A stretch of DNA of 64,000 nt from Blastocatellia bacterium (GTDB taxonomy: Bacteria; Acidobacteriota; Blastocatellia; HR10; J050). The stretch is taken from positions 1-64,000 of the forward strand of contig JALSQX010000073.1 in the NCBI GenBank assembly GCA_026985075.1. Direction: 5' to 3'. Shown here piece by piece: positions 51,274-56,681 of this stretch. The notes below the pieces were generated by a model that saw only the letters and a list, made by a program, of their open reading frames with translations, made no database searches and was not told the DNA's origin. Position 1 is the stretch's first letter; each line of letters opens with the position of its first letter. Both the position numbers and the translations under genes were made by a program.

Positions 51274-51302
51274 TTGACAGAGAGGGCTCTTTTCTCTATC
51301 TT
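51274..51302 (+). promoter_or_regulatory. Sigma-70 promoter of sulfur operon
   Basis: TTGACA, a 17-base spacer, then TATCTT. Transcription should start near 51309, only a few bases before the leader-peptide ATG. Confidence 0.8.
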
Positions 51303-51315
51303 AAATGCTTCACGT

Positions 51316-51450
51316 ATGAAGACCGGTGGATTTCAAACTCGCATCTCCTTCATCGCGAGCGCCGGGTGTATGTGTTGTTGTATGCCCGTCGGCGGCGCGA
51401 GGGAGGCTGCGGGTTTTGAAGCCACGTGTATGGAGCTGAACCCCATTTAG
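51316..51450 (+). CDS. Cysteine-rich leader peptide (attenuator sORF)
   Basis: 44 codons. The product starts MKTGGFQTRISFIASAG and then has Cys-Met-Cys-Cys-Cys-Met at residues 18-23, with another Cys-Met at 38-39, ending in TAG 51448-51450. Four Cys codons and two Met codons fall within six positions (51367-51384). The ATG lies about 7 bases after the predicted transcription start, so translation may be nearly leaderless; ATG 51370 is an internal alternative without a good ribosome site. A ribosome stalled at the Cys run would leave 51401-51415 free to pair with the terminator's left arm. Function: sensing Cys-tRNA supply for the sulfite/APS reductase operon. Inference from layout, but the elements are explicit. 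Confidence 0.75.
   Translation: MKTGGFQTRISFIASAGCMCCCMPVGGAREAAGFEATCMELNPI
51401..51415 (+). promoter_or_regulatory. Antiterminator segment
   Basis: GGGAGGCTGCGGGTT, inside the leader ORF 20-34 bases past the Cys codons, pairs with AACCCGCTGCCTTCC (51477-51491), the left arm of the terminator, with two non-Watson-Crick positions in 15. Confidence 0.7.
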
Positions 51451-51476
51451 AGAACGCACTCATTCATCGAGATGAC

Positions 51477-51516
51477 AACCCGCTGCCTTCCTCCAGGAGG
51501 GCGGCGGGTTTTTTAT
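51477..51516 (+). terminator. Intrinsic terminator of the leader
   Basis: AACCCGCTGCC (51477-51487) pairs with GGCGGCGGGTT (51500-51510) in an 11-base stem with one T-G wobble, and a T-run follows (51509-51514). It lies between the leader peptide stop and the sulfite reductase start, so it must be read through to express the operon. Confidence 0.85.
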
Positions 51517-51539
51517 TTTGGCCGAGAGGAGTCCTGACG

Positions 51540-53204
51540 GTGGGAGATCCAACCATTACGCTGGAACAAGTGCTCAAGCGCAATTCGCGCGAGCGGCTGA
51601 AAAAAGAGAAGATGCCGCTCGACATCATCCAGGAACTCCCCCGCCTCATCGAACGAGGCTATGAGGAGATTGCCGAGGACGATATCGTGCGCCTGCAGTG
51701 GTACGGCCTCTATCATGACAAACCGAAGCTCGGCCAGTTCATGATGCGCATCAAGATTCCCAACGGTATTCTCACTCCCCAAAAGCTTCGTCTCATTGGA
51801 GAGATCTCCGAGCGGTACGGGCAAGGGTACGGCGAGATCACCACCCGTCAGGATATTCAACTCCACTCCATTCGGCTCGAATCTCTGCCGGATATTTTCC
51901 AGATGCTGAAGCGAGCGGGGCTACATACCGTCGGCGCCTGTGGCGATGTCGTGCGGAACATCACCGGCTGCCCCATGGCCGGTCTGGATCGACGCGAACT
52001 GTTCGATGTGCGACCGGTGATCGCCGAGCTGGTGCACTTCCTGGATGGAAACCGTCAATACGCGGACTTGCCCAGAAAACATAAGATCACCGTCTCGGCC
52101 TGTCCGGCCCAATGCAATCTGCCGGAGATCCACTGCCAGAGTTATATCGCCGTGGAACAGAATCGCCGAGGCCGTACGCGTCGAGGGTTCACCGTGCGCG
52201 TGGGTGGTGGTCTCTCGACCGTCCCTCGCCTCTCTCAGCCGTTGGGCGTGTTCGTGGAGCCGGACGAGGTCCTCCCGCTCGTGCGCGCCATTCTGGACGT
52301 CTGGAAGGATGATCTGAAGTACCGTCGATCCTTCATCAAGGCGCGATTGAAATTCATGATCGACGATATCGGCGTGGACGAATTTCGCCGGCGCGTGGAA
52401 GAGCGATTGGGACGTCGATTGGAAGACTATCCTCACTGCCCGAGGCCCGTCGCCGAAGTAGCGCATCTCGGCGTGAACGAGCAAAAGCAACCGGGGCGAT
52501 ACGCCATCGGTTTCCCCGTCCTTTCCGGGCGCATCACCGGTCAGCAGATGCAACGGGTGGCCGATCTCTGCGCGCGCTGGGGCGACGATATTCGACTCAC
52601 GCGGCAGCAAAATCTCATCCTCACTGGAGTGACCCAAGATCGCCTCGACGAGGTCGTGAAACACATGGAGGCGATGGGATTCACTCTGGATGGTCCTCTC
52701 CGTGGCCATAGCATCGCCTGCACCGGCCAACCATTTTGCAATTTCGCCGTGACGGAGACCAAGAGGCGGTTGATCGACATCATCACGCACCTGGAGCGCG
52801 TTTTTGGTCAGACCGCAAGCGGTCTCCACATCTACCTGGACGGCTGCCCCCACGCCTGCGGTCAGCACTGGATTGGAGATATCGGGCTCATGGGCACGAC
52901 GGCCCGAACGGCCGACGGGGAGAGAGTCGAGGCGTACGATATCATTCTCCGCGGCGGGCGCGGCGAGCACGCGGCGATCGGCAAACCGATCGGACGGCGC
53001 ATCCCCGCCGGAGAGGTCAAATACGCCATTGAACGATTGATCGGCGCTTATCACGAGGCGCTGGCCCGAGGACGCTCGATGATGAGCTTTCAGGAGTTCT
53101 GTCTTCAGCGAACGGATGAGGAACTCAACGCCATCATCACCGGATCGCTGACGGGAGGGACGTACGAACATGACGGTGAACGTCGAAGCATTGGGATTCG
53201 ATGA
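51540..53204 (+). CDS. Ferredoxin-type sulfite (or nitrite) reductase
   Basis: 554 residues. Two ferrodoxin-like half-domains are present (NGILTPQKLRLIGEISERYG, TTRQDIQLHSIRLESLPDIF). The siroheme-[4Fe-4S] ligands are CTGQPFC and GCPHACGQHW (Cx5C...Cx3C). NITGCPMAGLDRRELFDVRP and RKHKITVSACPAQCNLPEI are further family marks. Sulfite is favoured over nitrite because APS reductase and siroheme genes follow. GTG 51540 is chosen with GAGGAG upstream; the frame extends left through the terminator, which cannot be coding. It overlaps cysH by 35 bases. Confidence 0.88.
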   Translation: MGDPTITLEQVLKRNSRERLKKEKMPLDIIQELPRLIERGYEEIAEDDIVRLQWYGLYHDKPKLGQFMMRIKIPNGILTPQKLRLIGEISERYGQGYGEITTRQDIQLHSIRLESLPDIFQMLKRAGLHTVGACGDVVRNITGCPMAGLDRRELFDVRPVIAELVHFLDGNRQYADLPRKHKITVSACPAQCNLPEIHCQSYIAVEQNRRGRTRRGFTVRVGGGLSTVPRLSQPLGVFVEPDEVLPLVRAILDVWKDDLKYRRSFIKARLKFMIDDIGVDEFRRRVEERLGRRLEDYPHCPRPVAEVAHLGVNEQKQPGRYAIGFPVLSGRITGQQMQRVADLCARWGDDIRLTRQQNLILTGVTQDRLDEVVKHMEAMGFTLDGPLRGHSIACTGQPFCNFAVTETKRRLIDIITHLERVFGQTASGLHIYLDGCPHACGQHWIGDIGLMGTTARTADGERVEAYDIILRGGRGEHAAIGKPIGRRIPAGEVKYAIERLIGAYHEALARGRSMMSFQEFCLQRTDEELNAIITGSLTGGTYEHDGERRSIGIR

Positions 53205-53958
53205 GTTGGAGATCGGCGAGCTTTCCGTCTTATTCGATGATCAGTCGCCAGAGGAGATCATTGGCTGGGCCATCGAGCGATTCGGCTCGCGATTGGCCAT
53301 CGTGACCAGCTTTCAGGCCGAAGGCATGGTCATTCTGGATATGGCCACGAAGATCGATCCCCACATTCGCGTGGTCACCATCGATACCGGTCGGTTGCCG
53401 GAAGAGACTTATGCGTTCATGGAACAGGTCCGCAACCGATATGGGATCAACATCGAGGTCTACGCTCCGGACGCCGAGGACGTCCGGCGCCTGGTCACCG
53501 CGCACGGACCGAATCTGTTCTACCGGGATGTGAGCTTACGGCTCCTCTGCTGCCAGATTCGCAAGGTGCGACCGCTGCTCAAAGCATTGCAGGGTCTGAA
53601 TGCCTGGATCACCGGACTCCGGCGCGAACAGTGGGCGTCGCGGATCAACATTCGAAAGATCGAACTCGACCACGATCATGGGGCTATCGTGAAGCTGAAT
53701 CCCCTGGCCGATTGGACGCACGATGAAGTATGGGGGTATCTGGACGCTCATGATGTTCCTCGACATCCCCTCTATGAGAAGGGCTACACCAGCCTCGGTT
53801 GCGCGCCCTGTACCCGACCCGTCGGACCGGATGAAGATCCGCGCGCCGGCCGATGGTGGTGGGAGAAAGACGCGCCGAAAGAATGCGGGATGCATTGCAG
53901 TATCGAGACGGGAGGATTGGAGCGCCAACTGGAAGCGTTGCTCAAAGAGAGAGCCTGA
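53170..53958 (+). CDS. cysH: APS reductase (assimilatory, [4Fe-4S])
   Basis: 262 residues. AIVTSFQAEGMVILDMATKI is the P-loop-like adenylyl site, VVTIDTGRLPEETYAFMEQV the following motif. CCQIRK and GCAPC supply the four Cys ligands of the [4Fe-4S] cluster that distinguishes APS from PAPS reductases. ECGMHC near the C-terminus holds the catalytic Cys. It reduces adenylyl sulfate to sulfite, the substrate of the preceding reductase. Start 53170 overlaps the reductase gene by 35 bases, so the two are translationally coupled. Confidence 0.93.
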   Translation: MTVNVEALGFDELEIGELSVLFDDQSPEEIIGWAIERFGSRLAIVTSFQAEGMVILDMATKIDPHIRVVTIDTGRLPEETYAFMEQVRNRYGINIEVYAPDAEDVRRLVTAHGPNLFYRDVSLRLLCCQIRKVRPLLKALQGLNAWITGLRREQWASRINIRKIELDHDHGAIVKLNPLADWTHDEVWGYLDAHDVPRHPLYEKGYTSLGCAPCTRPVGPDEDPRAGRWWWEKDAPKECGMHCSIETGGLERQLEALLKERA

Positions 53959-53968
53959 GGTGTGAGAT

Positions 53969-54427
53969 ATGATCGAAGTCGAGGCCGATCAACGAGAGAT
54001 TCTCCAGCGAGAGCTTCGACGGGTGATGCCCTCGCTGGCTCCCGCGACGACTCTTCGTCATCAATACGAGCGGCTCTCAGAGGCCCTTGGTGCCGGAGCC
54101 ATCCCTCAAGAGCTGATGGGCACGCTCGAACAAGTGCTGGAGATGATGCTCTCCACATCGCGCGCGCGGCGGGCTTACGGACCAACGGGGGAGCGGGCGC
54201 TCATCGCCCTCTATCACCAGACGCCTGCAGGCGTCCGCTTTCGCCAATTGGTGAACCAGGTGAACCGGTCATTGGACATGTTGAGAGGTCAGAGAATCGA
54301 ACGGCTCTCTTTCTCGTTGAAACGGCCCGGCACGTATCAGTTGACCATCGGGACCGACCACTGTCAACTCCTGGTGAGCATCGGTCGGGATGGCATCTCG
54401 GTGGATCAACTCTCCATAGGAGTTTAG
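53969..54427 (+). CDS. Unknown small protein in sulfur operon
   Basis: 152 residues; 10 bases after cysH, with ribosome-site-like AGGTG before ATG 53969. The N-terminal half is helical (DQREILQRELRRVMPSLAPA, MGTLEQVLEMMLSTSRARRA). The C-terminal half looks beta-rich (SFSLKRPGTYQLTIGTDHC, LLVSIGRDGISVDQLSIGV). No Cys pairs or metal motif; one Cys in TDHCQLL. I do not recognise the family. Tight coupling to cysH implies a role in sulfate or sulfite reduction or its control. Confidence 0.7.
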   Translation: MIEVEADQREILQRELRRVMPSLAPATTLRHQYERLSEALGAGAIPQELMGTLEQVLEMMLSTSRARRAYGPTGERALIALYHQTPAGVRFRQLVNQVNRSLDMLRGQRIERLSFSLKRPGTYQLTIGTDHCQLLVSIGRDGISVDQLSIGV

Positions 54428-54553
54428 TACGTATGGCCAATCTATTCGCCGGCAGGGAGAGCATTGGCTCTCGGATGATCCTTATTACCCATCTCCGCGT
54501 CGGACCAGCGAGCCGACGCGATGACGCGATAATGACGACATCAAGGAGGGAGG

Positions 54554-55060
54554 ATGATGCTGGCCGATCAATTCAGTCAAACATTCAGAAACGAACATCG
54601 TCAAATCCGAGACGCGCTCCTGGAACTCATCGAGGCTTTCCGGGAACGCGATAAGCCGCGAATTCAGTCTCTGCTCGACCGGATAGCGACGTATACCGGG
54701 CCTCACTTCCGTTATGAAGAAGAGGCGCTCTATCCGGCGCTGGTGGAGATCTTCGGACCAGAGTATATCGAAGAACTCCTCGGCGATCACGATCGCGCCA
54801 TCGGAACGGCCACGAGGCTCCTTCAGCTCGCCGGGAAGGAATCGCTCTCTGATGAAGACATTGCCGAGGCGACGAAGCTCATCCGGAGCATTCTTCCTCA
54901 CGTGAGCGATTGCGATGGCCTCTCCATCATGGTGGAGCGCTTGCCGGAAGAAAAAGTCGAGCAGATTTTGGAGAGGCGAGACCAGTCATTGCGCGCGGGG
55001 CTCAATCTGCTTCAGTGGGCGGAGCAGATCCGGAAGCGGCCGGCCATCGCACCCGCCTGA
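54554..55060 (+). CDS. Hemerythrin-like (HHE) di-iron protein
   Basis: 168 residues. Ligand pattern: RNEHRQIRDALLELIE, YTGPHFRYEEEALYPALVEI, LGDHDRAIGTATRLL, ILPHVSDCDGLSIMVE. These give the His and Glu of HHE cation-binding helices. AAGGAGGGAGG precedes ATG 54554; ATG 54557 is an in-frame alternative with better spacing. Likely oxygen, NO or iron binding in the cytoplasm. It sits between the reductase genes and siroheme genes and may protect the Fe-S/siroheme enzymes; that is inference. Confidence 0.85.
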   Translation: MMLADQFSQTFRNEHRQIRDALLELIEAFRERDKPRIQSLLDRIATYTGPHFRYEEEALYPALVEIFGPEYIEELLGDHDRAIGTATRLLQLAGKESLSDEDIAEATKLIRSILPHVSDCDGLSIMVERLPEEKVEQILERRDQSLRAGLNLLQWAEQIRKRPAIAPA

Positions 55061-55128: not shown

Positions 55129-56025
55129 ATGGTGAATGCTGAGCATCGATCTCGAGGAAAAGTCTATCTGGTCGGCGCCGGCCCGGGCGACCCGGAGTTG
55201 TTGACGGTGAAGGGTCGTCGGGCGCTGGAGCGTTGCCAGGTGGTCATCTATGATGCGCTCGTCAATCCGGCGCTACTCCAGTACGTTGCTCCGGAGGCGG
55301 AACGCATCTTCGTCGGTCGCCCGCACGATCGGGAACGCCTCTCCCAATCGGAGATCGAACGGGTGATGATCACACGTGCTCTGGACGGCAAGGTCGTCGT
55401 GCGCCTCAAAGGCGGTGATCCGTTCATCTTCGGGCGCGGCGGCGAAGAAGCGTGGGCGTTGGCCGAAGCGGGCATCGATTGGGAGATCATCCCCGGCGTT
55501 TCCTCCGGACATGCCGTGCCCGCTTACGCCGGCATCCCCCTCACCCATCGAGCCTACGCTTCAAGCGTGGCTTTCGTCACCGGCCATGAGTGTGCCGACA
55601 AGCGCTCGCCCGTCGACTGGCATCGGCTGGCTCGGGCCGTCGATACGATCGTGATCTTCATGGGAGCGAGGAATCTGAGCCGCATCGTGCGTGCCCTGCA
55701 AGAAGGAGGACGCTCGCCGGCGACGCCCATCGCCATCATCGAGTGGGGAACGTATGCCGAACAACGCGTGCACGTAGGGACGCTGGGGACCATTTTGACC
55801 GCACTCGGGGAGACGCCGATTCGCACGCCGGCTCTCATCGTCGTCGGCGATGTCGTCTCGCTCGAGCAGAAGCTCGCCTGGTTTCAGAGGAACGGCCGAG
55901 GCACCAGGAAAGCAGGGGAGGCGGACGAGAGCCCACCGCCTCATTCCATCCCGCCCCAACCTCCGGAGAGCGACGATCGCGACCCGAGAGAACGATCACC
56001 ACTTTCGCTCGAACATCAGCCATGA
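55129..56025 (+). CDS. cobA: Uroporphyrinogen-III C-methyltransferase
   Basis: 298 residues. VYLVGAGPGDPELLTVKGRR is the SAM/porphyrin signature. YDALVNPALLQYV, VVRLKGGDPFIFGRGGEEAW, IIPGVSSGHAVPAYAGIPLT and VIFMGARNLSRIV complete the SUMT fold. A Pro/Ser-rich tail (SPPPHSIPPQPPESDD) adds ~30 residues. ATG 55129 has GGAG upstream, and the longer frame is not family sequence. It makes precorrin-2, the siroheme precursor. Its stop overlaps the next start (ATGA). Confidence 0.92.
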   Translation: MVNAEHRSRGKVYLVGAGPGDPELLTVKGRRALERCQVVIYDALVNPALLQYVAPEAERIFVGRPHDRERLSQSEIERVMITRALDGKVVVRLKGGDPFIFGRGGEEAWALAEAGIDWEIIPGVSSGHAVPAYAGIPLTHRAYASSVAFVTGHECADKRSPVDWHRLARAVDTIVIFMGARNLSRIVRALQEGGRSPATPIAIIEWGTYAEQRVHVGTLGTILTALGETPIRTPALIVVGDVVSLEQKLAWFQRNGRGTRKAGEADESPPPHSIPPQPPESDDRDPRERSPLSLEHQP

Positions 56026-56681
56026 GGTACTACCCCGTTTTCCTCGATCTCCAGAACCGCTCCGTCCTCGTCGTCGGCGGTGGTCCGGTGGCCGAACGGA
56101 AAGTGATCCCCCTGCTGGAGGCGGGGGCGCGCGTGCGGGTGGTGAGCCCGAACCTCACCCCGCGACTTCGTCAAATGGTCGCTCATGGAGAGATCGCGCA
56201 TCGCCCGGGTCGATTCCATGAGACGGATCTCGATGGGGTGTGTCTGGTCATCGGCGCCACCGGCGATGTCGAGGTGAACGCACGCATCGCGCGCGCCGCC
56301 GAGCGCCGACGCCTTTTCTGTAACATCGTCGACGCTCCTTCCCTCTCCTCGTTCATAGCGCCCGCCGTCATCACTCGAGGCGATATTCTGATCGCCATCT
56401 CCACCAGCGGTCGAAGCCCGGCGCTGGCCGTCCGCCTCAAGCGCGAGATCGCCGCCCTCATCGGCCAAGAATATGCTCGCCTCGCCGAGCTGCTCGGACG
56501 ATGGCGAGCACAGATCACGCGATTGATTCCCCACCAACGCCGCCGCGCCCGGCTCTTTCACCAGTTAGTAGAATCCGATATCCTGGAACTGCTCCGCGCC
56601 GGATGTTCATCCGAAGCCGAGCAGCGCGTCAAAGAGCTCGTCGAGCGAGCAGCGAGGGAGAATGGGTCGTCGTCCCGCTGA
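56022..56681 (+). CDS. Precorrin-2 dehydrogenase / sirohydrochlorin ferrochelatase (Met8-like)
   Basis: 219 residues. YYPVFLDLQNRSVLVVGGGP begins the NAD-binding domain. VAERKVIPLLEAGARVRVVS, LVIGATGDVEVNARIARAAE and FCNIVDAPSLSSFIAPAVIT are CysG-N/Met8 motifs, followed by the helical dimer domain. It oxidises precorrin-2 and probably inserts iron, finishing siroheme for the operon's reductase. The start ATG 56022 overlaps the cobA stop by 4 bases. Confidence 0.9.
   Translation: MRYYPVFLDLQNRSVLVVGGGPVAERKVIPLLEAGARVRVVSPNLTPRLRQMVAHGEIAHRPGRFHETDLDGVCLVIGATGDVEVNARIARAAERRRLFCNIVDAPSLSSFIAPAVITRGDILIAISTSGRSPALAVRLKREIAALIGQEYARLAELLGRWRAQITRLIPHQRRRARLFHQLVESDILELLRAGCSSEAEQRVKELVERAARENGSSSR

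Follow-up and report, generated by a model that had tools for sequence, protein, structure and literature searches.

The trp and his attenuators of Enterobacteria are built from control codons, competing 1:2, 2:3 and 3:4 pairings and an intrinsic terminator. Leaders containing Cys codons have been described in several other settings. The Cys leaders of actinobacterial cys operons lack obvious terminators (Seliverstov 2005, PMC1262725), and mycobacterial poly-Cys leaders are reported to be leaderless and cysteine-responsive (Canestrari 2020 via PMC9031893, PMC13236596). The mycobacterial and actinobacterial poly-Cys leaders have been assigned to translational attenuation (PMC1262725, PMC9031893, PMC13236596). 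In Streptomyces lividans, the metL leader before metNIQ has no typical Rho-independent terminator (PMC8079986). The uORFC-8-2 motif was predicted upstream of cysS in Rhodobacterales, with Cys-tRNA-dependent read-through proposed (PMC8632094). As of 2010, almost no functions had been assigned to attenuators in Acidobacteriota (PMC2965389). Searches of a library of open-access papers gave no description of a Cys leader in this phylum, where absence is not proof.

The window analysed here is a stretch of 64,000 nucleotides from a Blastocatellia bacterium of the Acidobacteriota (genome of 5.2 Mb, G000; contig C73). Sequence analysis located a promoter, a Cys-rich leader ORF, a terminator and an antiterminator at 51274-51540 on the forward strand, adjoining the GTG start codon (51540) of a reductase gene. 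This arrangement very probably acts as a ribosome-mediated transcription attenuator, with cysteinyl-tRNA supply as its input and an operon for assimilatory sulfite reduction as its target. A preliminary description of this DNA had proposed such an attenuator, and its anatomy, the fit to the pathway, compensatory changes and recurrence in the phylum support that reading, with the corrections given below. The elements of the leader are as follows.

51274-51302, forward strand: sigma-70-type promoter TTGACA-17-TATCTT (TTGACA at 51274-51279, 17-nt spacer, TATCTT at 51297-51302)
51316-51450, forward strand: leader ORF MKTGGFQTRISFIASAGCMCCCMPVGGAREAAGFEATCMELNPI*, 44 codons, stop codon TAG at 51448-51450, with orthologues in genomes G001 (L004) and G028 (L006)
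~51326-51357, forward strand: segment 1, the protector arm (1:2 pairing with segment 2), lineage-specific, more complementary than shuffles in both the window and G001
51367-51384, forward strand: control codons Cys-Met-Cys-Cys-Cys-Met (TGT ATG TGT TGT TGT ATG), identical in G001
51399-51415, forward strand: segment 2, the antiterminator strand, pairing with 51477-51493; identical in G001 and similar in G028
51477-51516, forward strand: intrinsic terminator, with segment 3 at 51477-51491, a TCCA loop, segment 4 at 51496-51510 and a T-rich tail to ~51520

The promoter, the ATG at 51316, the 44-codon frame, the run of Cys and Met codons and a terminator before the first gene had all been named in the preliminary description, and all were located in the sequence. 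The promoter matches the consensus at 10 of 12 positions (1 hit versus 0.3 expected). Its predicted start site, at ~51309-51311, would leave a 5′ UTR of ~5-7 nt containing no Shine-Dalgarno sequence before the leader ATG, which lies 13 nt past the end of the predicted -10 box. The leader region had no match at gathering score among the Rfam covariance models, and Pfam and NCBIfam returned nothing for the leader peptides.

The terminator stem, previously given as 11 bp, comprises 15 bp (51477-51491 with 51496-51510). Complementarity between GGGAGGCTGCGGGTT (51401-51415) and the left arm of the terminator is present as reported, although the pairing extends slightly further (51399-51415 with 51477-51493; 16 pairs, one mismatch). 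Its energy is -30.8 kcal/mol against a shuffle mean of -16.4 kcal/mol, and no shuffle paired as well. The upstream arm at ~51326-51357, absent from the earlier account, completes the set of 1:2, 2:3 and 3:4 pairings.

Downstream of the leader, the following genes were identified.

51540-53204, forward strand: siroheme/4Fe-4S sulfite (nitrite) reductase, NirA-like, first gene of the operon, GTG start (PF01077, PF03460; NCBIfam NF007125 and NF007126 below their cut-offs)
53170-53958, forward strand: cysH, APS reductase type (TIGR02055, 257 bits versus a cut-off of 235)
53969-54427, forward strand: protein of 152 aa within the operon, without a family match in the Pfam/NCBIfam search
54554-55060, forward strand: hemerythrin-domain protein within the operon (PF01814)
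55129-56025, forward strand: uroporphyrinogen-III C-methyltransferase, siroheme synthesis (NF004790)
56010-56681, forward strand: precorrin-2 dehydrogenase / CysG N-terminal domain, siroheme synthesis (TIGR01470)

The models nearest to the reductase are NirA and ferredoxin-nitrite reductase, both under their cut-offs. Because its partners are an APS-type cysH and two siroheme-synthesis genes, the likely role of the operon is assimilatory sulfite reduction. The stretch 53969-55060 places the family-less protein and the hemerythrin-domain protein within this operon. A type I cysteine dioxygenase (PF05995, 58255-58917) is encoded downstream of it, so that a cysteine-degrading enzyme lies near the cysteine-making genes.

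In the proposed mechanism, the transcript would begin only a few bases upstream of the leader ATG, with translation of the leader following immediately. With ample Cys-tRNA the ribosome would pass the Cys run, leaving 51399-51415 either occupied by the moving ribosome or re-paired with the protector arm; the 15-bp terminator would form and transcription would end before the sulfite reductase gene. With scarce Cys-tRNA the ribosome would stall on 51367-51381, its leading edge at ~51381-51395, and open the protector hairpin. The exposed strand would then capture the emerging left arm of the terminator, allowing read-through by RNA polymerase. Constrained folding was performed with ribosome footprints masked and the RNA 3′ end placed at 51493, where the left arm is out and the right arm is not yet. 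Under these conditions a ribosome placed on the Cys codons gave a 2:3 pairing probability of 0.84-1.00; without any ribosome the value was 0.45, placing one at the stop codon lowered it to 0.28, and placing one over the antiterminator strand brought it to 0. At full length, with the right arm out, equilibrium folding favoured the terminator in every ribosome state, stalled included; antitermination must therefore be kinetic.

How the switch would be reset depends on the position of the stop codon, which in the window follows the antiterminator strand by 34 nt. The preliminary description held that a ribosome finishing the ORF would cover 51401-51415. That applies while the ribosome is in transit; once it reaches the stop codon (51448), its footprint would span ~51430-51462, already beyond the antiterminator. 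Reset therefore needs either transit or the 1:2 protector hairpin, and in the genus of the window, where the hairpin is strong, it can take over this function. In many other leaders the stop codon falls within ~15 nt of the antiterminator strand, and a terminating ribosome could therefore cover the strand directly. The protector complementarity was significant in just 6 of 30 leaders; a protector hairpin as a general feature of the leaders is unsupported, which makes reset by a finishing ribosome tentative.

The preliminary description had suggested comparing the upstream regions of relatives, and there the Cys run and the stems are kept in G001 with compensatory changes, in G028, and in many Acidobacteriota before the same gene. 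G001 (same genus) has exactly the Cys run and antiterminator strand of the window, and its promoter and the stretch coding for TRISFI are nearly or fully identical; the promoter block is kept while the DNA upstream of it has diverged. All 15 terminator pairs are kept, with two double-compensatory pairs and two wobble changes relative to the window, and all scorable antiterminator pairs are intact. The left arm has changed at two positions, both of which still pair with the unchanged antiterminator strand (GC to GU, UA to UG). On these alignments, the left-arm changes follow the pattern that a double constraint predicts. A covariation shuffle test (121/500) was without power, with two sequences only. 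G028 belongs to another class of the phylum, with 72% identity in the reductase, and has the homologous leader RCCCSCPCLLGRDAGFE. The Cys cluster of this leader, Cys-Cys-Cys-Ser-Cys-Pro-Cys, has changed codons and flanks, keeping the Cys residues but not Met; after it come a strong antiterminator and a terminator that differs little in sequence from that of the window.

BLAST searches with the leader DNA across the phylum yielded only short, mostly terminator-like fragments, a second site in the same genome and G028; conservation was therefore tested through the downstream gene. Whole genomes of the phylum, together with named genomes, were the source of the regions upstream of reductase homologues, of which 75 non-redundant ones came from Acidobacteriota. 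By a criterion of at least 4 Cys in ten codons, a threshold picked after the window was seen, a poly-Cys sORF was present in 34 of the 75 upstream regions, compared with 1/75 on the reverse strand and 2/44 in other phyla; the same density occurred in 0.76% of dinucleotide shuffles of the upstream regions. The trait is patchy, as about half of the Acidobacteriota upstream regions are without a Cys leader.

The leaders found elsewhere in the phylum mostly look unrelated to that of the window, yet they precede the same gene. Typical examples are MAFGLNPAMCCACCCACCCALRRTCG and MHNLNTMCCLACMCCCFFSGERRRSENVCVCKTVKM, and others carry a C-terminal CCCCxxVxSGAGRLLT. Among culturable members of the phylum, Granulicella rosea (L110) and Terracidiphilus gabretensis (L093) have sORFs containing Cys at this position. 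They contain 4-8 Cys codons, and most are followed by an intrinsic terminator, usually 20-50 nt past the stop codon. In 17 of the 30 leaders tested, the stretch just 3′ of the Cys codons was complementary to the left arm beyond shuffles (p≤0.05; combined p 8e-16, kinship ignored); antiterminator pairing in the remaining 13 fell short of significance in this crude complementarity test. By our estimate the tested leaders represent perhaps eight to ten independent lineages. Among eight related leaders, TGT and TGC are mixed in the third base of several conserved Cys columns. Among leaders whose promoter could be recognised, most have the in-frame start codon 6-13 nt beyond the -10 box (64 in L013), in a scan that had free choices and whose start sites are predicted. 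Given a usual start site ~7 nt past the -10 box, most of these leaders look leaderless or nearly so, resembling those of mycobacteria.

Cys leaders were also found before other genes. The second leader in the genome of the window, MGKRGPTTRYIDLTRCRLRCCRMRPYM... (MGKRGPTTRYIDLTRCRLRCCRMRP...), precedes a 1-Cys peroxiredoxin (L160:1340-2445; G000:C102, ~93740-94845). It has a promoter, a near-identical terminator and a strong antiterminator, and is conserved in G001 (L159). Its motif RYIDLTR...CCR resembles short reading frames of actinobacteria that carry the annotation of putative leader peptide. Two further Acidobacteriota peroxiredoxins (L179 and L182) are preceded, ~210-220 bases before the peroxiredoxin match, by the Cys-run sORFs MTMTLNTTCTCCCLGLVRVCR and VMTTHLHNVLCCCCRYNHARRQGRV, each followed by a hairpin resembling an intrinsic terminator; antiterminator pairing was significant for L182 (p 0.012) and not for L179 (p 0.94). 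In a genome of the same order (G384; L213, reverse complement 690-950), the leader MVAVALKRKVEVSRLRRSGMCCLDMSQMCCRPARARLSGRGSRGMKGHS, with MCCLDMSQMCC, a TTGACA-type promoter and a terminator, lies ~600 nt before cysH. A pattern search for further Cys leaders in the genome of the window stayed at background level except at the two known sites, and one hit, L142, was attributed to chance. Twelve PLP-fold (cysK-family) loci of G000 and G001 had no convincing Cys leader upstream. The likely regulon includes a peroxiredoxin. We consider evenly balanced the wider proposal that a leaderless, Cys-tRNA-sensing transcription-attenuation regulon extends through much of the Acidobacteriota, covering sulfite/APS reductase operons and 1-Cys peroxiredoxin, with leaders that maybe arose repeatedly and that would link cysteine supply to oxidant defence.

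The preliminary description also raised the possibility that the leader senses both Met and Cys, such that interleaved Met codons would make read-through respond to a shortage of either Cys-tRNA or Met-tRNA, Met being made from Cys. The CMCCCM of the window leader and the CMCRRMC of the Streptomyces lividans leader before metNIQ (PMC8079986) fit this idea, and Met is indeed enriched in the Cys clusters of the phylum, accounting for 16 of 83 non-Cys residues there versus 51 of 910 elsewhere (p 5e-5 with relatedness ignored, a value that is optimistic because the sequences are related). Met codons are, however, recurrent but not conserved among the leaders: they are missing from the clusters of many leaders, including that of G028, where Cys is kept, and an ATG before TGY may come from start-codon creation or repeat slippage. 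Dual sensing is accordingly unlikely in our judgement. A metal, copper or redox sensor formed by the peptide itself, whose folding or thiol state would stall the ribosome, might explain why a peroxiredoxin in the same genome is also preceded by a Cys leader, and a Cys/Met-rich CMCCCM could bind metal. It is nonetheless very improbable, given that peptides across lineages share little beyond the Cys codons and have no fixed Cys spacing, that the regulated genes make cysteine, and that the antiterminator lies directly 3′ of the Cys codons, as codon stalling requires.

Control at the level of translation, with the hairpin incidental, is what the mycobacterial leaderless sORFs would suggest for a near-leaderless poly-Cys sORF before sulfur genes. 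We regard it as quite improbable here, where a strong terminator, with compensatory changes, has been kept alongside an antiterminator that competes with it, and where the GTG at 51540 is preceded by a GAGAGGAG belonging to the reductase gene itself. Short ORFs and hairpins are common enough that an ordinary promoter and terminator could enclose a spurious frame, but conservation, covariation and the excess over reverse strands (34/75 versus 1/75) make this extremely improbable, and the same excess refutes chance as an explanation of the recurrence in the phylum.

The mechanism of attenuation is of a known kind. With the trp and his attenuators the locus shares a short leader ORF rich in codons for the amino acid that the pathway makes, an intrinsic terminator and an antiterminator just 3′ of the control codons; unlike them, it uses Cys codons, places its stop codon past segment 2 and has a protector arm that is not general among relatives. 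The uORFC-8-2 motif is similar in combining a short ORF with tandem Cys codons, a stem and an intrinsic terminator, but it has two Cys codons, precedes an aminoacyl-tRNA synthetase gene and is confined to Alphaproteobacteria, whereas the leaders described here have 4-8 Cys codons, precede a sulfite reductase operon, belong to Acidobacteriota and have a predicted near-leaderless start. The metL leader, which is leaderless, resembles them in this predicted start and in its mixed Cys and Met codons (CMCRRMC), and differs in its methionine import gene and in having no typical terminator. What appears to be new is the setting, in this clade and before this operon, the presence of a complete terminator and antiterminator behind a poly-Cys ORF predicted to be near-leaderless, and the likely regulon. 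Acidobacteriota are major soil bacteria, and a phylum-wide cysteine attenuator would offer a testable rule by which they adjust sulfate assimilation. A further parallel is with the mycobacterial and actinobacterial leaders, which likewise place a Cys-run sORF before cysteine genes. That these have no obvious terminator, while the window leader has a full terminator and antiterminator, makes the latter a terminator-based counterpart, and the same sensor can therefore be compared with two kinds of output.
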